DNA of 32,110 nt from Lachnospiraceae bacterium (GTDB lineage Bacteria; Bacillota; Clostridia; Lachnospirales; Lachnospiraceae): assembly GCA_016291405.1 (NCBI GenBank), contig JAEEXG010000026.1, forward strand, positions 1 to 32,110, given 5' to 3'. The translations under genes and the position numbers were made by a program. The notes under the pieces are model-generated. The model did no database searches and was not told the origin of the DNA. It worked only from the letters and a program-made list of their open reading frames with translations. The stretch's first letter is position 1, and every line of letters begins with the position of its first letter. This document shows positions 1 to 17,758 of this stretch, piece after piece.

Positions 1-939
1 AGCAGCATATTCAATCTGGCCAAGGTTTAACTTATATAAGCAAGCAAGGGCTCCCGCAGCCATTGAGCAGGCGCTTCCGATTTCTGCCTGGCAACCGCAC
101 TCGGCGCCTGAAATACTTGCATTTGTCCTAATAACGTTTCCCATAAGACCGGCTACGCTTAAAGCATCTATAATCTCATCTTCGGGAAAGCCTTTATCGT
201 GCCTCATGTAATATAAAACAGCGGGGATAACGCCGCAGCTTCCGCAGGTGGGAGCCGTCACCACAAGGCCTTCATCAGCATTTTCTTCGCTGCAGGCATA
301 GGCATAGGCCGAAATCTTTCTGTTCATTGTTACATCGGGGCTCTCATTATAGCATCGCCTTTCGTTTAAAAGCTTTGCTTTTCTTGTAATCTTTAAGCCT
401 CCGGGAAGCTCGCCTTCTTTTAAAAGGCCTCTTTCAACTTCCGATTCCATGGCGTGCCAGATTTCTTTTAAAAAGTCTTTTATTTCTTCGCCTTCAGCCT
501 TATACACAAACTCAGGTAAGCTGAGACCTTCTTCTTTGCAGGTCTTTAACATGCCCGTAAAGTTTTTCTGAGGATAGATTTCAACAAAGTCGTCTCCGTC
601 GTTATTTTCAAATCTGATGGAGCCGCCACCGATAGAATAAATGGTTGATTCATCTATCACTTTTCCTGATTTGTAAGCCTTAAACACCATGGTGTTTGGA
701 TGCTTTAAGTCTGTTTTTTCTCTGTCAATTTCAATGACAATATCTTCGATTGCAGACTTAATGGCTTTGGCCGTTGAATGTCCTTCACCTGTGCAGGCTA
801 AAGATCCGTATAAGCACACGGAAAAAGAATCCGCATCCTTATGCTTGTTTTTATAAATCTTTGCGGCTCTGTAAGGACCTACAGTATGTGAACTTGAAGG
901 TCCGTGTCCGACTTTGTATACGCTTTTAATGCTTCTCAT
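1..939 (-). CDS. sdaA: L-serine dehydratase (L-serine ammonia-lyase), 3' end cut off by window edge
   Basis: Deaminates L-serine to pyruvate and ammonia in the cytosol using an oxygen-sensitive [4Fe-4S] cluster. The 313 codons visible start at ATG 939, preceded by a GGGAGAAG ribosome site, and stay open to base 1. The protein begins almost directly with the GPSSSHTVGP motif (about residues 13-22) of the beta domain. The alpha-domain signatures follow, including TAPTCGSCGVIPAVLYY with clustered Cys residues, and then SGAECGCQAEIG. Beta and alpha parts are therefore fused in one chain, as in SdaA, rather than split into SdaAA/SdaAB. The C-terminus, about 90 or more residues, lies outside the window. 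It starts 18 nt after the gatD-like stop, so it is probably co-transcribed with murT-gatD; a shared function with them is not obvious. Confidence 0.93.
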   Translation of the reverse strand, partial: MRSIKSVYKVGHGPSSSHTVGPYRAAKIYKNKHKDADSFSVCLYGSLACTGEGHSTAKAIKSAIEDIVIEIDREKTDLKHPNTMVFKAYKSGKVIDESTIYSIGGGSIRFENNDGDDFVEIYPQKNFTGMLKTCKEEGLSLPEFVYKAEGEEIKDFLKEIWHAMESEVERGLLKEGELPGGLKITRKAKLLNERRCYNESPDVTMNRKISAYAYACSEENADEGLVVTAPTCGSCGVIPAVLYYMRHDKGFPEDEIIDALSVAGLMGNVIRTNASISGAECGCQAEIGSACSMAAGALACLYKLNLGQIEYAA

Positions 940-957
940 AACTTCTCCCTTTTTTGA

Positions 958-1683
958 CTAAATAATTGGAAAGTCAAATTCCTTGTATTCTTTTAATCTT
1001 CTATCATATGCCGCTATGATAGTGTCTTTAAAGGCAAGTGTGGGTTCTTTTACCCCCATTAACTTTAGTACATATTCTGTAAAATAGGGGTTTTGAATCA
1101 ATATAGGACCGAGCAAGTAGGTGCCAAAGAAATTGTTTTTTCTCACTCCTTCAAACTCGTTACCCGGGCAGAGGCCGTCTCCTCTTTCTACCTTAAAGAA
1201 ATATCCCTTTGAGTTGTCTCCATATGAATGGGTAAACTGGTTTTTGTATCCAACAATTGTGATGCCATCCATGTCTCCCATTACATGACGGTTATAGCGG
1301 TTAAACATCTTTCTTTTTGCCACAAAATCAAAGATATTTAAGCAGGGAATCTTGCTTCCGTCTTCATTTTCAATTTCTTTATAAAATACTTCAGCGGCAT
1401 TTCCTGTTAAAAGAAACACAACGCCGTCGTTAATAAGCTCTTCTAAGCGCTCCTTATAAGGCTTTAACCTGTCAATTACAAGTTCCTGTGCGTGCTCCGA
1501 CATAGGTCCCATGTAGATTAATGAAGGTTTCTTGCTTACAAAGGAAGGCTCTTCGTTAAGATAGTCTTCCACAAACTCAGCATCGGGAAGGCACTTTTTT
1601 AAATAGCGTACATTTCCCGTATCACCGTATAAGTTTGCTATTTCAGGGAAAAGCTCTTCAATGATAATCTTTTCGTTTTCCAT
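958..1683 (-). CDS. GatD-like class I glutamine amidotransferase homologue lacking catalytic Cys and His
   Basis: Homologous by motif to GatD, the glutaminase partner of MurT in lipid II isoglutaminyl synthase. Shared landmarks are ANLYGDTGNVRYL (about 17-28), IYMGPMSEHAQ (56-66), and FFGTYLLGPILIQNP (185-199). In GatD the nucleophile sits in a TICGGYQ-type elbow and the His in GTYLHGP. Here the elbow reads LLTGNAAEVF (91-100), with no Cys, and the His position is Leu191 (GTYLLGP). So the glutaminase dyad is missing as read, although the reading frame is intact and full length (241 aa versus about 243 in S. aureus). It begins 1 nt after the murT stop, with a GGGGAGGAGG ribosome site inside the murT end. 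It could be a structural or regulatory partner of MurT, or an amine-channelling subunit with another donor. Family assignment is firm; activity is inferred to be absent. Confidence 0.8.
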   Translation of the reverse strand: MENEKIIIEELFPEIANLYGDTGNVRYLKKCLPDAEFVEDYLNEEPSFVSKKPSLIYMGPMSEHAQELVIDRLKPYKERLEELINDGVVFLLTGNAAEVFYKEIENEDGSKIPCLNIFDFVAKRKMFNRYNRHVMGDMDGITIVGYKNQFTHSYGDNSKGYFFKVERGDGLCPGNEFEGVRKNNFFGTYLLGPILIQNPYFTEYVLKLMGVKEPTLAFKDTIIAAYDRRLKEYKEFDFPII

Positions 1684-1684
1684 A

Positions 1685-3058
1685 TTAAGCCTCCTCCCCG
1701 AAATGTTTATTAAGTAAGTCTTTTATTTTAGCTACCACCCTTTTATCAACTTCAGGCTTCCAGTGCTGATGAAGCACAAAGATTGTATCTGTGTTTTCAA
1801 ATTCAAGGTAATCGGGAGCTTCCATATCCTGCATATCGATAATAATCTTTTCTTCAGGCACACCCGCCATTAAAAGTCGCATCTTTTGGTCTAAAGAACG
1901 AGAACCCGGGATTATGATGTGCTTAATAAGGTCTGAATTTAACTTTTCATAGTCGCAATCATAAATCCAGCACATGCTCTCTTTTGGAGTCTCATCGTCA
2001 AGTAAGAACAATACTTCCTTTCTTCCCGGTTCTTTTGACACATAGTCAAAGACAACCGAACAAGCGATAGGGTTATGCTCTTTTGCCATCATATCAACAA
2101 CATCGATGTTTCCCACTCTAAACTTTGTGTATCTATAGTCGGGAAGAGAAATCTTTTTAAGGCTTTCTCTTATTTTGTCTGCGCTTATGCCTACTTCTCT
2201 AAGTAAAGCCGTGATTGTAAGCTGGTTATAAATGTTGAAAATGCTGTTGTTTAAAAGCTCGTACTCTTCTTTTGCATTCTTTTCATATATAACCATTGTG
2301 TTTTTATCAAAGTTAACTTCCGCATCATAATCAGGCTTAGGGGATGAGAATCCGCATTTAGGGCAATGAGCCTTACCGATTTGATGATAGCGCACATACT
2401 CGTATTCAAGCTTTGTGGCGCACTTAGGGCAGATCTGACAGTCATTTACAATGTTTTCACACTTTTCAGTGTCAGAAGGAAGTCTTCTGATAGAATAGTA
2501 AATTCTGGGATTTTCAGGTGCTACGCTTCCTGAAATCAAGTCATCCGCATTTAAGATTAACTTGGTTTCTTTTTGCATGTTATCAGAAACGATTTTCTGA
2601 ATGTATTCAGGACTTCCGTTACGCAAGATTGAATCCCTGAAAAGGTTTGTGCAAATAACATATTCAGGCTTTAAATAAGGATATATATGCATTGAGCTTC
2701 GCTCATCTATTTCAAGAACCGCCCAGTCGTTTTTAGACTTACCGGTAATGGTAGAGTTAGCGATTAAAGCACTGGCAACGCCCTCTCTCATATTTGAACC
2801 CAAACGGTTGTTAGTTGTTTTGTGGCCGCAAGCTTCAAGCATGTCCACAAGCAAGTTAGAAACGGTGGTCTTTCCGTTTGTGCCTGTAACGCCGATTGTG
2901 TGCTTTGGCTTATCCATAAGTTCAATAAAATTAGGGCAAAGCTTAATTGCAAACTTGCCCGGTAAATGTGCCGCGTTCTTTCCAAGCGCCTTCATAGATA
3001 AGCGCATTATTTTAACTGTCCATAAAGAAAAGTAAAATCTGATGTTTTTCTTAGCCAT
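1685..3058 (-). CDS. murT: MurT-type Mur ligase (lipid II isoglutaminyl synthase ligase subunit)
   Basis: Mur-ligase family ATP enzyme that, with GatD, amidates the alpha-carboxyl of D-Glu in lipid II on the cytoplasmic membrane face. The protein (457 aa) has an N-terminal hydrophobic stretch (about 8-20), the ATP loop GTNGKTT (59-65), and the MurT-specific Cys ribbon with CPKC pairs at 210/213 and 232/235. A C-terminal ligase domain carries LLDDETP and WIYDCD (364-369). The Asp of WIYD is a plausible equivalent of the Asp that completes the GatD triad, but I could not align it rigorously. I chose ATG 3058 rather than the in-frame GTG at 3100 because AGAGGA lies 8 nt before it and the GTG has no ribosome site. 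It is translationally coupled to the gatD-like gene. A promoter candidate sits at 3091-3119. Confidence 0.9.
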   Translation of the reverse strand: MAKKNIRFYFSLWTVKIMRLSMKALGKNAAHLPGKFAIKLCPNFIELMDKPKHTIGVTGTNGKTTVSNLLVDMLEACGHKTTNNRLGSNMREGVASALIANSTITGKSKNDWAVLEIDERSSMHIYPYLKPEYVICTNLFRDSILRNGSPEYIQKIVSDNMQKETKLILNADDLISGSVAPENPRIYYSIRRLPSDTEKCENIVNDCQICPKCATKLEYEYVRYHQIGKAHCPKCGFSSPKPDYDAEVNFDKNTMVIYEKNAKEEYELLNNSIFNIYNQLTITALLREVGISADKIRESLKKISLPDYRYTKFRVGNIDVVDMMAKEHNPIACSVVFDYVSKEPGRKEVLFLLDDETPKESMCWIYDCDYEKLNSDLIKHIIIPGSRSLDQKMRLLMAGVPEEKIIIDMQDMEAPDYLEFENTDTIFVLHQHWKPEVDKRVVAKIKDLLNKHFGEEA

Positions 3059-3090
3059 CTTTATTTCCTCTAATAAAATTTTCCTGACTA

Positions 3091-3119
3091 ATCGTAGCAC
3101 AAAATAAGACAGGCTACAA
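3091..3119 (-). promoter_or_regulatory. Candidate sigma-A promoter of murT
   Basis: On the minus strand TTGTAG (3114-3119), a 17-nt spacer and TACGAT (3091-3096) lie between the terminator of the upstream small gene and the murT start. The spacing is ideal and the hexamers are moderate matches. It would give a leader of about 25-30 nt. Predicted from sequence only. Confidence 0.5.
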
Positions 3120-3150
3120 TTAAAAAAGGGCAGGTCTTTCGACCTGCCGT
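3120..3150 (-). terminator. Rho-independent terminator after the 111-aa gene
   Basis: GGCAGGTC and GACCTGCC form a perfect 8-bp stem (3129-3136 with 3141-3148) around a TTTC loop. On the minus strand it is followed by a run of six T. It lies 11 bases past the stop of the small gene and separates it from murT. Confidence 0.85.
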
Positions 3151-11337: not shown

Positions 11338-12108
11338 TTAGTTCATTGCTTCCTTCATTTCTCTTACATATTTTCCTATTACACTTGGAGCTTCGGCCTC
11401 GTTTTCATGTAAGAGCTTAATGATCTTAGATCCCACAATTACTCCGTCCGAGCTTTTTGACATTTCTTTAGCCTGATCCGGCGTCTGAATGCCAAAGCCT
11501 ATTGCACAGGGCACATCGGTTTCTTCTTTTATACTTTTAACGATGGAAGATATATCCGTTGTGATGCTGCTTCTTACCCCCGTAACACCAAGGCTTGAAA
11601 CCACGTAGATAAAGCCCTTTGCTTCTTTTGCTATCATCTTAATTCGCTCATTTGATGTGGGGGCGATTAAGTATATAAAGTCAATTCCGTACTTTTCACA
11701 GTAAGGCAGAAACTCTTCTCTTTCTTCGAAAGGCACATCGGGAACTATGATTGCATCGATTCCAACTTCCTTACACTTAGAAATGAATTTTTCGCTTCCG
11801 TAAGAAAAGATTACGTTTGCATAAGTCATATATACCAAAGAAACATTAACGAGTGAGCGTATTTTCTTTGTAAACTCAAATACCTTGTCTGTATTTATGC
11901 CGCCTTTAAGGGCGCGCAAGTTTGCTTCCTGAATAACGGGGCCTTCGGCTGTAGGGTCTGAAAAGGGTATTCCAAGCTCGATTATGTCGGCTCCGTTTTT
12001 AGCCATTTCTATAATAATCTTTTCCGTAGTATCTAAATCGGGGTCTCCCAAAGTAATAAAGGGAATGAAGGCTTTGCCGTTTTTAAATGCTTCACTTATT
12101 CTACTCAT
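11338..12108 (-). CDS. trpA: Tryptophan synthase alpha subunit
   Basis: Cleaves indole-3-glycerol phosphate to indole and glyceraldehyde 3-phosphate and passes indole to TrpB. A 256-residue TIM barrel with FITLGDPD (17-24), the catalytic Glu44 in ELGIPFSDP, and the phosphate-site Gly motifs GFGI and GVIVGSKI near the C-terminus. The second catalytic acid, Asp60 of the E. coli enzyme in ADGP, is Glu55 here (TAEGP). It overlaps the trpB end by 8 nt and is the last gene of the operon. No clear terminator follows; the next base run before the ZIP promoter has only a short weak dyad around the stop. Confidence 0.97.
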
Positions 12109-13285
12109 TTATATCCTCCCCTCTGTAGCGGGCAATTGCCGCACAGTCTTTGTCTCCTCTACCTGAAACCGTAACCACAATAATCTTATCTTTAGAAAGT
12201 GTGGGGGCAAGCTTCATGGCATAAGAAAGAGCGTGGGATGATTCGATTGCGGGGATGATTCCTTCCGTCCTTGCAAGGTATTCAAAGGCATTTACCGCTT
12301 CTTCGTCTGTAACCGCAACATACTCTGCTCTCTTTATATCATGTAAGTATGCATGCTCCGGTCCTATTCCCGGGTAGTCAAGGCCTGCGGAAATAGAATA
12401 TACAGGGGCAATCTGTCCGTCTTTATCCTGGCAAAAATAAGACTTCATGCCGTGGAAGATTCCAAGTCTTCCTGTGTTAATCGTAGCCGCAGTTTCAAAG
12501 GTATCGATTCCTCTTCCCGCAGCTTCACATCCTATAAGGCGCACGTCTTTATCTTCAATAAAGTTATAAAAGCTTCCGATGGCATTTGAACCTCCGCCTA
12601 CGCAAGCAATTACAGCATCGGGAAGACGGCCTTCTTTTTTAAGCATTTCTTCTTTTATTTCCTTTGAAATAACAGCCTGAAAGTCTCTTACAATTGTAGG
12701 GAAGGGATGAGGACCCATTACAGAGCCAAGGCAATAATGGGTGTCGCTTATTCTTGAAGTCCACTCACGCATGGCTTCGGAAACCGCATCCTTTAAAGTA
12801 GCCGTGCCTGTTTTTACGGGGATAACTGTAGCTCCAAGCAATCTCATTCTGTATACGTTTAAGGCCTGGCGCTTTGTGTCTTCTTCCCCCATAAAGACCA
12901 CACATTCCATGTTCATTAATGCTGCTGCCGTAGCCGTTGCAACGCCGTGCTGACCGGCTCCCGTTTCAGCTATTAATCTGGTCTTTCCCATTTTCTTTGC
13001 AAGCAAAGCCTGGCCCAAAACGTTGTTTATTTTATGAGCTCCCGTGTGGTTTAAATCTTCTCTTTTAAGATAGATTTTTGCGCCACCTAAGTCCTTTGTC
13101 ATCTTTTCAGCATAATATAATCTTGAAGGTCTTCCCGCATATTCATTTAATAAAAACTCTAATTCCTTGTTAAACTCAGGATCGTTTTTATAGTGATTGT
13201 ATGCTTCTTCAAGTTCATTTACGGCATTCATTAATGTTTCGGGAATGTACTGCCCTCCGTGAACTCCAAATCTACCCTTGCTCAT
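12101..13285 (-). CDS. trpB: Tryptophan synthase beta subunit
   Basis: Pyridoxal-phosphate enzyme that joins indole and L-serine to make L-tryptophan; works as the alpha2-beta2 complex with TrpA. 394 residues, the usual length for TrpB1. Key motifs: GQYIPETLM near the N-terminus, the Schiff-base Lys85 in [20 protein letters not shown] (the Glu that activates indole), and the phosphate-binding loop [10 protein letters not shown] (about 230-239). The C-terminal GRGDKD motif (about 378-383) is intact. It starts in a 4-nt overlap with the trpF stop and has a GGGAGGAAG ribosome site. This is the TrpA-coupled TrpB1 type. Confidence 0.98.
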
Positions 13286-13902
13286 TTGCTTCCTCCCTTT
13301 TGCGTGTTTCTGACTGCATTAACCGCTTTAATTATCTTTTCTTTGTCTTTACGTTTATCCGTCTCAACTCCCGAAGATATGTCTACACAGTAGGGAGTAA
13401 ATTTACTTACGGCCTCCTCTATGTTTTCGGGGGTTAAGCCTCCCGCCAAAATAAACTCTCTTCTAAAGTGGGTAATTAAGCTCCAGTCAAAGCATTCCCC
13501 GGTTCCGTACCCGTTATCAAGAATTACCATATCCGCCAAAGAAGAGTTTGCCTTAACCAAGTCCTCTTCGCTTCTGACTTTAAAAGCTTTCCAAACTGGG
13601 ATGTCGGTACTCTCCTTTAAAACCTCTATATAGTCATTATCTTCGTGACCGTGAAGCTGAATTACATTTAAATTCAATAGCTTTGATGCTTTTATTACTT
13701 CCTTTAAATCTTCATCCACAAACACCCCTACGGCTTTTATGGAAGGATCAAGGTTTTTTCTTAATTCAACCGCCCTTTCAGGCTCAATGTATCTGTGGCT
13801 CTTTTTAAAGTTTAGGATGAAGCCTGCGTAATCGGGCTTCGCTTGGTTTACATAATCTATATCCTCCGGTCTAAACAAACCGCAAATTTTTATCTTTGTC
13901 AT
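13282..13902 (-). CDS. trpF: Phosphoribosylanthranilate isomerase
   Basis: Converts N-(5-phosphoribosyl)anthranilate to the carboxyphenylamino-deoxyribulose phosphate by an Amadori rearrangement. 206-residue TIM barrel with the catalytic Cys in [11 protein letters not shown] (5-15), the QLHGHED strand, AGGLTPENI phosphate loop and the general acid Asp in VDISSGVE near the C-terminus. Start and stop both lie in 4-nt overlaps, with trpC before and trpB after. It is a stand-alone gene, not fused to trpC as in enterobacteria. Confidence 0.97.
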
Positions 13903-14684
13903 TTTGCCGCTCCTTTAATTTTCTTTATTAAAAGTGCCTTATCATCGCTTCTCATTAAAAATTCACCTATTAAAAGGGCATCCGCTCCGGCTTCTTTTAA
14001 CATCTTTGCATCGTCTAAAGAAGCTATTCCGCTCTCCGCTACGTATATTACATTTTCAGGAATTAGTTCTCTTAATCTCTTTGCATTGTTTAAATCAACG
14101 CTAAAATCCTTAAGGTTTCGATTGTTTACCCCAAGTATTTTGGCTCCGGCTGAAAGCGCTGTCTTTATTTCCTCTTCATCGTGGGTCTCAACCAATGCGC
14201 TTAAGCCAAGGGAAGCGGCTAAGTTAATATACTTTTCCAAGGTTTCTTTGTTAAGTAAAGAAACTATAAGCAAGATGCAATTTGCTCCAAGTAGCTTAGC
14301 CTGATAAATCTGGTATTCATCAACCACAAAATCTTTTCTAAGCATGGGAAGTGAAACCTTTTTTCTTATGTCTTTAAAGATTTCATCACTTCCTAAAAAC
14401 CACTTAGGCTCCGTTAAGCAAGAAATTGCATCCGCTTTTCCTTTTTCATATTCTTTTGCTATCTTTAAATAATTAAACTCAGGGTCAATTATGCCTTTTG
14501 AAGGAGAAGCCTTTTTAATTTCGCATATAAGTGAAATCCCGGGCCTTTTAAGGGCTTCTTCAAAAGGAAAATCACCCTTTGGCAGGTTTTCGGTCAAAGA
14601 TTTTAAGCGATCTAAGCTCATAGTTTCTTTGTCCTTTAAAACCCTTATCATTGCGTATTTTGAGATTTCACTTAATATGCTCAT
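13899..14684 (-). CDS. trpC: Indole-3-glycerol phosphate synthase
   Basis: Ring-closing decarboxylase that makes indole-3-glycerol phosphate. 261 residues with the family motifs CEIKKASPSKGII (about 54-66, catalytic Lys), MLRKDFVVDEYQIYQAK (second Lys), VETHDEEE (Glu), GVNNRNL and the AESGI phosphate segment. It begins 10 bases after trpD with an AGGAG ribosome site; its stop overlaps the trpF start. Confidence 0.97.
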   Translation of the reverse strand: MSILSEISKYAMIRVLKDKETMSLDRLKSLTENLPKGDFPFEEALKRPGISLICEIKKASPSKGIIDPEFNYLKIAKEYEKGKADAISCLTEPKWFLGSDEIFKDIRKKVSLPMLRKDFVVDEYQIYQAKLLGANCILLIVSLLNKETLEKYINLAASLGLSALVETHDEEEIKTALSAGAKILGVNNRNLKDFSVDLNNAKRLRELIPENVIYVAESGIASLDDAKMLKEAGADALLIGEFLMRSDDKALLIKKIKGAAK

Positions 14685-14694
14685 TTTTATTCTC

Positions 14695-15714
14695 CTATTT
14701 GTTACTTACTTCAATGAATCTGTTTAAAGTTTTAAGTGCAAGGCCCGAATCAATAAGCTTTGCGGCAAGCTTAACGCCGTCTTTCATGGTTTCTGCTTTT
14801 CCTGCGATGTACAAAGAAGCACCTGCGTTTAACAAAACCGCATCTCTCTTAGGGCCCTTTTCTCCGTTTAAAATCTTAAGAGTGATGTCTGCGTTTTCTT
14901 TGGGTGAGCCACCCTTTAAGTCTTCTTTGGTGCAAAAATCAAATCCGAAATCCTTAGGGGAAATGGTGTAAGTCTTATACCATCCATCCTTTATTTCACA
15001 AACCTTTGTGGGAGCGCTTAAAGAAATTTCATCAAGCTTGTCCGTTCCGTAAACAACCATTCCGCGCTTAACGCCAAGGCCTATAAGAACCTGAGCAAGA
15101 GGCTCCACAAGATAATCATCGTATACGCCAAGAAGCTGCATTGTGGGCTTTGCGGGGTTTGTTAAAGGTCCCAAAATGTTAAATACGGTTCTAAATCCAA
15201 GTTCTTTTCTGATAGGGCCTACATACTTCATTGAAGAATGATACTTTTGAGCAAAGAAGAAACACATTCCAACTTCGTTTAAAAGCTCAACACATTTTTC
15301 GGGGCTTTGCTCAATGTTTACTCCCAATGCTTCAAGGCAATCGGCAGTACCGCATTTTGAAGAAGCTGCGCGGTTACCGTGCTTTGCTACCTTCACGCCG
15401 CCTGCAGCAGCTACTAACGCAGAAGTAGTTGAAATGTTAAAGCTGTGAGCGCCGTCTCCGCCCGTTCCCACAATTTCAAAAACATCACATCCTGCATCCA
15501 CCTGAGTGGCATGTTCTCTCATGGCAGCGGCACAACCTGCTATTTCATCAGTTGTTTCCGCTCTTGCACTCTTTGTTGATAAAGCCGCTAAAAAAGCCGC
15601 ATTCTGAGTGGCAGAAGTTTCGCCGTTCATGATTTCGTTCATAACGCCGTATGCTTCGTAGTAAGTCAAATCCCCTTTGTTCACGATTTTTTGAATTGCG
15701 TCCTTAATCATCAC
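14695..15714 (-). CDS. trpD: Anthranilate phosphoribosyltransferase
   Basis: Transfers the phosphoribosyl group of PRPP to anthranilate. 339 residues, normal length for a stand-alone TrpD. The PRPP and anthranilate loops are clear: [14 protein letters not shown] (about 84-97), [23 protein letters not shown] (about 110-130), and [26 protein letters not shown] with the anthranilate-channel residues. The Mg2+ acidic pair is in [10 protein letters not shown]. It opens with two adjacent ATGs, the first overlapping the trpG stop by 4 nt. Confidence 0.97.
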
Positions 15715-16283
15715 ATTTCTCCTTTTAAAAAGTTTTTTATCATTATCTTTCCGCTTGGTGTCATTATTGATTCGGGGTGAAATTGCACTCCGTAAATGGG
15801 ATAGGTTTCATGGGCTACAGCCATCACTTCTCCGTCATCCGCTCTTGCCGTTATCTTTAATTCTTTTGGAAGGGTTTCTTCCTTCACACTTAAAGAGTGA
15901 TATCTTGCTACTTTAGTTTCTTTAAAGCATCCCTTAAACAATTTGCAGTTTAAGTCAAGTGTAGTGGGGGACTGCTTTCCGTGCATAAGTGTTTTGGCAT
16001 GTGTGACTGTTGCATTAAAGGCTAAGCATATTGCCTGGTGTCCGAGGCATACCCCAAGGATTGGTGTTTTGTCTCCCAGTTTCTTTATTACATCAACTAT
16101 TACCCCTGCATCTTCCGGGCGTCCGGGGCCCGGGGAAATAATTATCTTTGAAGGATTTAAAGCCTTGATTTCTTCTACGCTTAGCTCATCGTTTCTTATT
16201 ACTTTTATGTCTTTTTCAAATTCGCCTATGTATTGATAGAGGTTATATGAAAAGCTGTCGTAATTATCGATTAAAAGAATCAT
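15711..16283 (-). CDS. trpG: Anthranilate synthase glutamine amidotransferase subunit
   Basis: Class I glutaminase that supplies ammonia to TrpE. 190 residues starting [18 protein letters not shown]; the nucleophile is Cys79 in GVCLGHQA and the His-Glu pair is in QFHPESIMT (about 168-176). Both catalytic residues are present. I chose ATG 16283 over an upstream in-frame ATG at 16343. The shorter start fits the family N-terminus, has a GGGGAGGG ribosome site, and forms a typical ATGA overlap with the trpE stop. It may also serve folate synthesis as PabA if no other copy exists. Confidence 0.97.
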
Positions 16284-17758
16284 AAGTCGCCCTCCCCTGC
16301 TTTTTCCAAAGCCTTGATAACGGCTTTTGCTTTGTTTAAGCATTCTTCAAATTCTTTGTTTGGATCTGAATCCGCCACAATGCCGGCGCCGCTTCTAACA
16401 AATACCTTTTCGTTTTTCTTGTAAGCAATTCTTATGGCAATGCAGGTATCCATGTTGCCGGTAAAGTCTATGTAACCGATTGCCCCACCGTAGATGCCTC
16501 GCTTATCGTTTTCAAGCTCTGCTATAAGCTGACAGGCTCTTATCTTTGGAGCACCTGAGAGAGTCCCTGCGGGAAGCACGCTCTCTATGGCACTTAGAGC
16601 GTCTTTATCTTTTCTTATTACGGAGCGAACGCTTGAGCCTATATGCATTACGTGAGAGAATCTTTCGATTGAATGAAGCTTTTCAACTTCCACGCTTCCA
16701 AACTCGCTTATTTTTCCAAGGTCGTTTCTTCCTAAATCAACCAGCATGTTGTGCTCGGCAAGTTCTTTTTCATCGGCTAGAAGCTCTTTTTCAAGGCTTA
16801 GGTCTTCTTCCTTTGTGGCGCCTCTTTTCCTTGTGCCTGCCAAGGGGAAGGTGTGAAGCACTCCGTCTTCAAGCTTAACTAAGGTTTCAGGCGAAGCCCC
16901 TGCCACTTCCACATCCGTTCCCGAAAAATAAAACATGTAAGGAGAAGGATTGAGGGTACGAAGAACCCTGTATGTATCAAAAAGGCTTCCCTCGAAAGGA
17001 GCTTCCAATCTGTTTGATAAAACTATCTGGAAAATGTCGCCTTCAAATATGTGGTTTTTAGCCTTTGTAACCATGTCGCAGAACTCGTTCTTTTCAAACA
17101 ATGGTTTAACGGCGCCTGTGAGCTTTCCTTTAGTGTTTGTATCTTTTTCGCCGTTCTTTAAAAGATCAAGCATTTCTTTAAGGGACTGCTTTGCTTTTTC
17201 ATAATTTTCTTCGATGTTATCTAGCTTCATGTTTGCGATAAGGATTATCTTTTGCTTTATATTGTCAAAGCAGATTACCTTATCAAAAAGCATTAAATCC
17301 ACGTCCTTAAATGCTTCTTCATCGCGCTTACCGCTTGTAACGGTGGGCTCTGAGTAGGTTATGTAATCGTATGAAAAATACCCAACAAGGCCTCCCGTAA
17401 ATGTAGGAAGATAATCAAGCCTAGGGCTTTTATATTCTTTTAAAATGTCTCTTAAGTAATCGGACGGATTCTTACACTTAAGGGTCACATCTCCGATTTC
17501 CCTTGATTCTTTTAAGACACCGCCCACGCAATCAATGCTAAGTTTTGGCTCATATCCTAAGAATGTATACCTGCCCCAGGTTTCATCCGCCACCGCAGAT
17601 TCAAGCATGAAGCAATGCTTTGATGCTTTCTTAAGTATCTTCACCGCCTCTATTGGGGTGATAAAATCCGATAAAATCTCAAGACTTACAGGAACTACGG
17701 AGTAGTCGCCCTTTCCCTTTATTTCTTTGACTTCTTCCAAAGTAGGTAATGTGTGCAT
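16280..17758 (-). CDS. trpE: Anthranilate synthase component I
   Basis: Makes anthranilate from chorismate with ammonia from TrpG. 492 residues. The N-terminal domain has the tryptophan feedback segment CFMLESAVADETWGRYTFLG (about 48-68, LxxS-type). The chorismate domain shows IFQIVLSNRL, NPSPYMFYFSG, EVAGASPETLVKL, TFPLAGTRKRG, ELAEHNMLVDLGRNDLG, LPAGTLSGAPKIRA and IAIRIAYKK, with all expected Mg2+ Glu positions apparently kept. It starts at ATG 17758 with an AGGGAGGAAA ribosome site and is the first gene of the operon, downstream of the T-box and a second folded leader segment. Feedback by tryptophan is expected from family knowledge. Confidence 0.97.
   Translation of the reverse strand: MHTLPTLEEVKEIKGKGDYSVVPVSLEILSDFITPIEAVKILKKASKHCFMLESAVADETWGRYTFLGYEPKLSIDCVGGVLKESREIGDVTLKCKNPSDYLRDILKEYKSPRLDYLPTFTGGLVGYFSYDYITYSEPTVTSGKRDEEAFKDVDLMLFDKVICFDNIKQKIILIANMKLDNIEENYEKAKQSLKEMLDLLKNGEKDTNTKGKLTGAVKPLFEKNEFCDMVTKAKNHIFEGDIFQIVLSNRLEAPFEGSLFDTYRVLRTLNPSPYMFYFSGTDVEVAGASPETLVKLEDGVLHTFPLAGTRKRGATKEEDLSLEKELLADEKELAEHNMLVDLGRNDLGKISEFGSVEVEKLHSIERFSHVMHIGSSVRSVIRKDKDALSAIESVLPAGTLSGAPKIRACQLIAELENDKRGIYGGAIGYIDFTGNMDTCIAIRIAYKKNEKVFVRSGAGIVADSDPNKEFEECLNKAKAVIKALEKAGEGDL

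Follow-up and report, generated by a model that had tools for sequence, protein, structure and literature searches.

A GatD-like subunit lacking its glutaminase residues is maintained beside a MurT-like ligase in a Lachnospiraceae bacterium and related Clostridia

In a Lachnospiraceae bacterium, the GatD-like partner of the Mur ligase MurT has lost both the nucleophilic cysteine and the catalytic histidine of the canonical glutaminase. A first-pass annotation of the same DNA had proposed that a GatD which, from its residues, would be devoid of glutaminase chemistry is being maintained beside the ligase, and our analysis supports this core reading. We lean, a little beyond an even chance, towards regarding the pair as an old branch of the MurT/GatD family in which the glutaminase would have been abandoned and the ligase kept, with a nucleophile that is no longer derived from glutamine. 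Many gut and acetogenic Clostridia carry such a relative of MurT/GatD, whose GatD half is conserved in spite of its lost catalytic residues and which would probably attach to the cell wall a group other than ammonia released from glutamine. The consequences put forward in the first-pass annotation, i.e. free ammonia, another amine, a different modification of D-Glu or an allosteric cap, are all retained below as alternatives of unequal likelihood.

The locus and the missing catalytic triad

The window designates hereafter the whole stretch of DNA analysed, i.e. 32,110 nucleotides (contig JAEEXG010000026.1 of assembly GCA_016291405.1). Its features of interest are the following:

1..939, minus strand: L-serine dehydratase gene sdaA, running off the contig (open reading frame; 18 nt downstream of the gatD-like gene)
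958..1683, minus strand: GatD-like subunit without Cys and His, 241 aa (open reading frame; Pfam GATase_3; alignment with S. aureus GatD)
1111..1113, minus strand: codon of Leu191, at the position of His189 of S. aureus GatD (alignments)
1402..1404, minus strand: codon of Gly94, at the position of the nucleophile Cys94 of S. aureus GatD (alignments)
1685..3100, minus strand: MurT-like Mur ligase, 471 aa, GTG start as listed, with P-loop and Cys4 ribbon (open reading frame, MurT_C, 7q8e)
1976..1978, minus strand: codon of MurT Ser375, at the position of Asp349 of S. aureus MurT, the third triad residue (alignment)
2606..2638, minus strand: MurT gate loop RDSILRNGSPE, canonical RDQLDRYGE (alignment)
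3129..3148, minus strand: terminator-like hairpin immediately upstream of murT (consensus match only)

The murT-like and gatD-like genes are both on the minus strand and separated by 1 nt, as first annotated. Their products exceed the Pfam cut-offs, with 30.9 bits against 27 for GATase_3 and 77.5 bits against 25 for MurT_C; as to MurT membership, MurT_C, the Mur ligase middle domain and an adjoining gatD are all present. The similarity to the S. aureus proteins is clear for both (phmmer E about 3e-15 with GatD, 5n9m/6gs2; E 6e-53 with MurT, 7q8e). The NCBIfam GatD equivalogs gave 67 and 59 bits for cut-offs of 450 and 400, four controls with intact Cys and His also remaining below (180–261 bits). 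As for the GATase_3 family search, it found HisH and missed the gatD-like gene of the window, so that its result was set aside.

As previously noticed, the two catalytic residues of the subunit are gone: phmmer places Cys94 of S. aureus GatD on Gly94 and His189 on Leu191. A replacement cysteine was looked for near the elbow and is absent, positions 93–98 being TGN[AS]xE in the majority of rows. In our alignment A1, Cys is missing from position 94 and His from position 191 in all 16 sequences. We then compared 96 window-type sequences, fragments included and partly picked by a His-less pattern, with four canonical ones. In this Cys/His-less type, 92 of 93 sequences have Gly at position 94 and none has Cys, while position 191 is Ile, Leu, Val or Thr in 96 of 96 and never His. 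That the other fold motifs are kept is true only in part: NLYGD, Arg129 and GTYxxGP remain, but the oxyanion GGG is replaced by GPM in the window (G[PT]M in the majority of the 96 rows) and GFENH by GYKNQ. Gaps set aside, new near-invariant residues appear at Asn95 (92/93), Glu98 (93/93), Arg129 (94/94), Lys147 (93/95) and Gln149 (92/95); those referred to below as pocket residues are putative, being assigned by homologous position.

Two other class-I glutamine amidotransferases were taken as controls. TrpG, encoded in the window, has intact GVCLGHQ and HPES motifs, and HisH of the host genome intact GICLGLQ and HPE, which indicates that the triad loss is specific to the GatD-like protein and is neither a genome-wide nor a sequencing artefact. 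The trpG gene belongs to a set of trp operon genes at 11338–17758 on the minus strand, where TrpE, TrpG, TrpD and TrpB were recognised. A second, intact gatD was also looked for in the host: the sole MurT_C match of the genome is that of the window, and no second match to the canonical GatD profile was found. The only other GatD match of the host genome is a fragment at a contig end (C42:1-246). It is 99% identical, has sdaA after it, and is in our view the continuation of the window locus.

The loss extends to the ligase, a point absent from the first-pass annotation. The third triad residue, Asp349 of S. aureus MurT, is Ser375 in the window; among 92 MurTs of this type the position is Asn in 84, Ser in 4, another residue in 4 and never Asp. 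In the literature, D349N abolishes or severely reduces the activity in S. aureus (PMC6113224), and D355A, the equivalent change in S. pneumoniae MurT, only reduces it (PMC6085368). By contrast with these losses, the residues of the ATP site (P-loop Lys77, Glu130, Asp132, Glu133 and Arg323) are kept in 92 of 92 MurTs, that of the window included. The gate loop is rewritten from RDQLDRYGE to, mostly, RDSxxRN[AG]H, with Asn161 in 89 and His163 in 85 of the 92 sequences, and the canonical KNP motif has two extra residues ahead of its Asn. At position 163 the window has Ser instead, which counts against the explanation that we favour. This loop was described as a possible path for ammonia, and MurT as lacking the His that other Mur ligases have in their loop (PMC6085368); the His of the Cys-less type arises near the site of this Mur-ligase His, in a different register.

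Such changes bear on the possibility that the subunit is a non-catalytic cap or a sensor, gating a MurT with an unrelated donor once a ligand is bound in the rebuilt pocket of GatD. The near-invariant new residues at pocket positions speak in its favour, as does Arg129, which phmmer aligns with the glutamine-capturing Arg128 (MAFFT sets them one column apart). The rewriting of the donor side of MurT would however be left unexplained, and we consider a cap or sensor improbable.

Conservation, descent and distribution of the Cys/His-less pair

Between the window and its nearest species (G016), dN/dS is 0.04 for gatD and 0.04 for murT. A GatD match was found in 22 of the 60 relatives searched (the window genome included). 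The window type accounts for 18 of them, including the fragments of G012 and G033, which do not cover the Cys region, and the canonical type for 4. We also scanned contigs of named genomes with the 16 GatDs of A1: 429 of 451 stretches were confirmed, giving 80 loci, mostly titled Clostridia and biased towards the Cys/His-less type since one of the two peptide patterns used picks His-less sequences. In 80 of these 80 loci murT lies immediately upstream on the same strand, the frames overlapping or being at most 327 nt apart. In L034 and L049, MurT and the GatD-like protein form a single open frame. The AlphaFold model of the L049 fusion (75 rows; pLDDT 87, pTM 0.78) was compared by Foldseek to known structures; S. 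aureus MurT was the match for its MurT part (E 5e-27), 5n9m_A that for its GatD part (TM 0.84 by target), a value which concerns the fusion and not the window protein. The fold is thus predicted to be retained in this natural fusion. Another frame of 822 aa, L165 (G425), is an apparent MurT-GatD fusion in which Cys and His are present and the MurT part is unusual. L134 (G060) is a Cys/His-less GatD in a frame of 310 aa, with an acidic, Ala-rich insertion, about 40 residues long, ahead of its GFKSQF motif.

Purifying selection, clade-wide fixation, the constant upstream murT and the two fusions are in agreement with the proposal that a GatD without glutaminase chemistry is kept beside MurT. One might have regarded the subunit as a pseudogene or a relic being lost, all the more that three genomes of the same genus, 96–99% complete (G001, G003 and G013), have no GatD match, and that scattered, independent losses, partial or full, occur in canonical lineages (L191, L239, L240, L248). 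The pair is however not decaying, given its dN/dS, the changes shared by its relatives as new clade-wide motifs and the two gene fusions; a relic is already contradicted by these data and we give it hardly any credit.

The MurT sequences were compared in two trees. In a first tree of 66 chosen rows, five loci with a partial or missing MurT being left out, one branch (SH-aLRT 98) separates 15 MurTs whose partners have Cys and His from 51 whose partners lack both. In a second one, of 70 rows hand-picked from about 200 pairs, midpoint-rooted and with the MurT loop columns included, a branch with SH-aLRT 99 sets apart 40 of 41 Cys/His-less rows, on the side that includes Acetobacterium woodii and Eubacterium limosum. 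The exception, L248, is Cys/His-less with a canonical loop, stands among canonical rows and apparently lost these residues on its own and at a later date. Partial losses (L191, L239, L240) are found elsewhere in this tree; with L248 and L156, they make scattered losses of Cys and/or His in otherwise canonical pairs. Adjoining the Cys-less clade, L151 and L249 have kept Cys and His in GatD while their MurT loop is already RNGE, so that they are possible intermediates.

Among 198 pairs with readable residues—related rows, partly selected by pattern, and an Asp column that depends on the alignment—129 lack both Cys and His, 65 have both and 4 have one. Asn occupies the loop position in 122 of the 129 pairs lacking both, and the MurT Asp is missing in 122; it is kept in 63 of the 65 pairs with Cys and His. 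Its retention in 7 of the 129 Cys/His-less pairs, in this larger alignment, counts against our preferred explanation.

The class-level draw comprises 393 genomes, of which 208 match. At least 39 Cys/His-less genomes were verified by sequence, 29 at 111 bits or more, counting that of the window, and 10 from the Eubacteriaceae group, a lower bound because the 208 matching genomes were only partly fetched. In a phylum-level draw, 110 of 299 genomes match, a few of them from the class of the window; 40 pairs were retrieved from outside this class, and 39 of them keep Cys and His.

A profile of canonical GatD (A4) was run on 56 genomes having a Cys-less pair; as a control, Cys-less GatDs score at most 202 bits with it, and eight independent genomes taken as canonical, six of them verified by sequence, 271–371 bits. 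A canonical GatD occurs beside a Cys-less pair in one of the 56 genomes only, G342 (335 vs 86 bits). Its two pairs are on different contigs, L284 with ICGGYQ, SHGA and RYGE, L283 with IGGSGS, ALGP and RNGE. The other second matches to A4 are frames of 484–553 aa (CobQ-like by their length), fragments, or second Cys-less pairs. The latter are found in G296 (L129 and L180) and G372 (L131 and L181), each with two different Cys-less pairs, one of Eubacteriaceae type. The canonical and Cys-less kinds thus mostly replace each other and may coexist; their coexistence in G342 argues for different functions. With L283 and L284, this genome is the best natural test of separate functions.

The nucleophile and a candidate role in peptidoglycan

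In the mechanism that we propose, MurT, with its ATP and Mg residues, would activate a carboxylate as an acyl-phosphate, the acceptor being presumably, by homology, the alpha-carboxyl of D-Glu in the lipid-linked peptidoglycan precursor. The GatD-like subunit stays with MurT, as linkage and fusion show, and would dock on it as an obligatory partner, either structural or shaping the nucleophile site; an amine not made from glutamine would then attack the acyl-phosphate. Most likely, if with somewhat less than an even chance, this nucleophile would be an amine or an amino acid taken straight from the cytosol. We prefer it to free ammonia because the donor side of MurT and the GatD pocket have been rebuilt and fixed in a subclade-specific manner. 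Neither MurT nor GatD of S. aureus is active alone, and S. aureus MurT can replace MurE in vitro by adding L-Lys, data not shown in that source (PMC3266927).

Alternatively, D-isoGln might still be made, MurT taking NH3/NH4+ from the ammonia-rich cytosol of a gut anaerobe and GatD being only a coupling cap, in the manner of the ammonia-dependent carbamoyl phosphate synthetase I. The C94G mutant of S. aureus GatD, i.e. the very substitution of the window, has lost the glutamine-dependent activity and keeps an NH3-dependent amidation of lipid II at pH 8.5; at pH 7.5, however, this mutant pair is inactive with NH3 or NH4Cl (PMC3266927). A switch to free ammonia alone would moreover not obviously need the rewriting of the donor-side loop of MurT, and the gate loop, the Asp349 site and the GatD pocket are all rewritten clade-specifically. 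Next in the operon of the window species comes a serine dehydratase, which releases NH3. Nevertheless, sdaA was seen after gatD in just two cases, the window species (with the C42 fragment) and G016, amounting to 1 of the 80 database loci, some flanks being short; as it is no conserved neighbour, the serine dehydratase of the operon was rejected as a general local source of ammonia. All in all, amidation from free ammonia appears to us rather unlikely, if the most serious of the rivals. The adjacency itself (window 1–939 on the minus strand, C42 of the host genome G000, and L026) may be a coincidence.

No conserved neighbourhood naming the donor was found in the 80 loci, and no amine-specific gene is linked. 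Downstream frames cluster with representatives of rlmN, PP2C and PASTA-kinase in 26, 26 and 25 of the 80 loci respectively; in 16 loci of other subclades the adjoining frames, judged by eye, are different.

The Eubacteriaceae group (f71) is represented by 11 genomes in the class draw. Nine have the Cys-less pair only, and these, verified by sequence, share VTGT[ST], FTNTLGP and the loop TNLQKDQVQRNGDP; G342 has both kinds and G402 the canonical one only. The Cys-less pair as sole version in all Eubacteriaceae is thereby ruled out. G402 counts against our favoured explanation and G342 for it, and since the second offsets the first, our weighting of the readings was kept as before. G137 is Acetobacterium woodii, its RnfC agreeing at 443 of 443 residues with PDB 9eri_C, which comes from this organism; G387 is Eubacterium limosum ATCC 8486, a member of the Cys-less clade. 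Type-B peptidoglycan is cross-linked via the alpha-carboxyl of D-Glu, and A. woodii is said to be of type B (Kandler and Schoberth; Guinand). For Eubacterium, a review gives types A and B2alpha (PMC11382707), and in E. limosum the constituents of the wall include Ala, Glu, Lys, Orn and Ser (PMC4791908). If type B holds, an assignment made in part from a review table, amidation of D-Glu would block the carboxyl needed for the bridge, which argues against free ammonia; where the Cys-less pair is the only one of MurT/GatD type seen, it would need another job. In Eubacteriaceae it is therefore a candidate, open to testing, for the ligase of the type-B bridge. Among the matches listed in the open-licence literature, none names such a ligase.

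Going further, and only as a tentative and rather doubtful generalisation, the whole Cys/His-less clade might consist of ligases adding amines or amino acids to the D-Glu alpha-carboxyl, with subclade-specific donor pockets: they would start the type-B bridge in Acetobacterium and Eubacterium and add a substituent that nobody looked for in Lachnospiraceae and relatives. Against the explanation that we favour, many members have an mDAP-type MurE motif and no known alpha-substituent of D-Glu. For 13 Cys-less genomes shown, the MurE motif is DNPR in 7, DNPA in 2 and another one in 4. The full-length MurE of the host (L266, G000) has EDAR in the place of DNPR. With the motifs so mixed, the stem diamino acid was set aside as a correlate.

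S. aureus and S. pneumoniae cannot do without the amidation of D-Glu by MurT/GatD, which was proposed as a drug target (PMC3266927, PMC6085368). Its operon was counted as widespread in Clostridia, with the Cys-less type not set apart (PMC6085368), and no description of a Cys-less GatD or of a non-glutamine MurT was found among the matches listed in the open-licence literature. Homology would assign glutamine-dependent amidation to these Clostridia; their residues say that it should not depend on glutamine. Should the donor prove to be an amino acid or a diamine, many gut bacteria would bear an unrecognised modification on D-Glu, the very residue by which NOD2, a receptor of the host, senses them, and acetogens with genetic tools would offer a candidate enzyme for the type-B cross-bridge.

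Comparison with known systems

The Cys-less pair shares with MurT/GatD of S. aureus and S. pneumoniae the gene order, the folds and the ATP site. The Cys4 ribbon of S. aureus MurT is found in the window MurT and the GatD C-terminal helix in the L049 model, while the aromatic contact Tyr of S. aureus MurT corresponds to Tyr380 here (91/92). Unlike these canonical pairs, it has neither the Cys and His of GatD, nor the Asp349 of MurT, nor the GGG oxyanion loop; the MurT loop RDQLDRYGE has mostly given way to RDSxxRN[AG]H, with two more residues before the Asn of KNP.

Carbamoyl phosphate synthetase I is ammonia-dependent and retains a dead glutaminase domain. In both systems, a class-I amidotransferase partner has lost its nucleophile and is retained all the same; here, however, three triad positions and the synthetase side are changed, and this in a whole bacterial clade. 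With MurE and the other Mur ligases, the pair has in common the core of an acyl-phosphate ligase, but MurT is without the UDP-binding N-terminal domain and is paired with a GatD-type partner. Finally, in Negativicutes polyamines are found on the alpha-carboxyl of D-Glu (PMC10628300); with the enzymes responsible, as with those of the type-B bridge, the Cys-less pair would have this same carboxyl as its acceptor.
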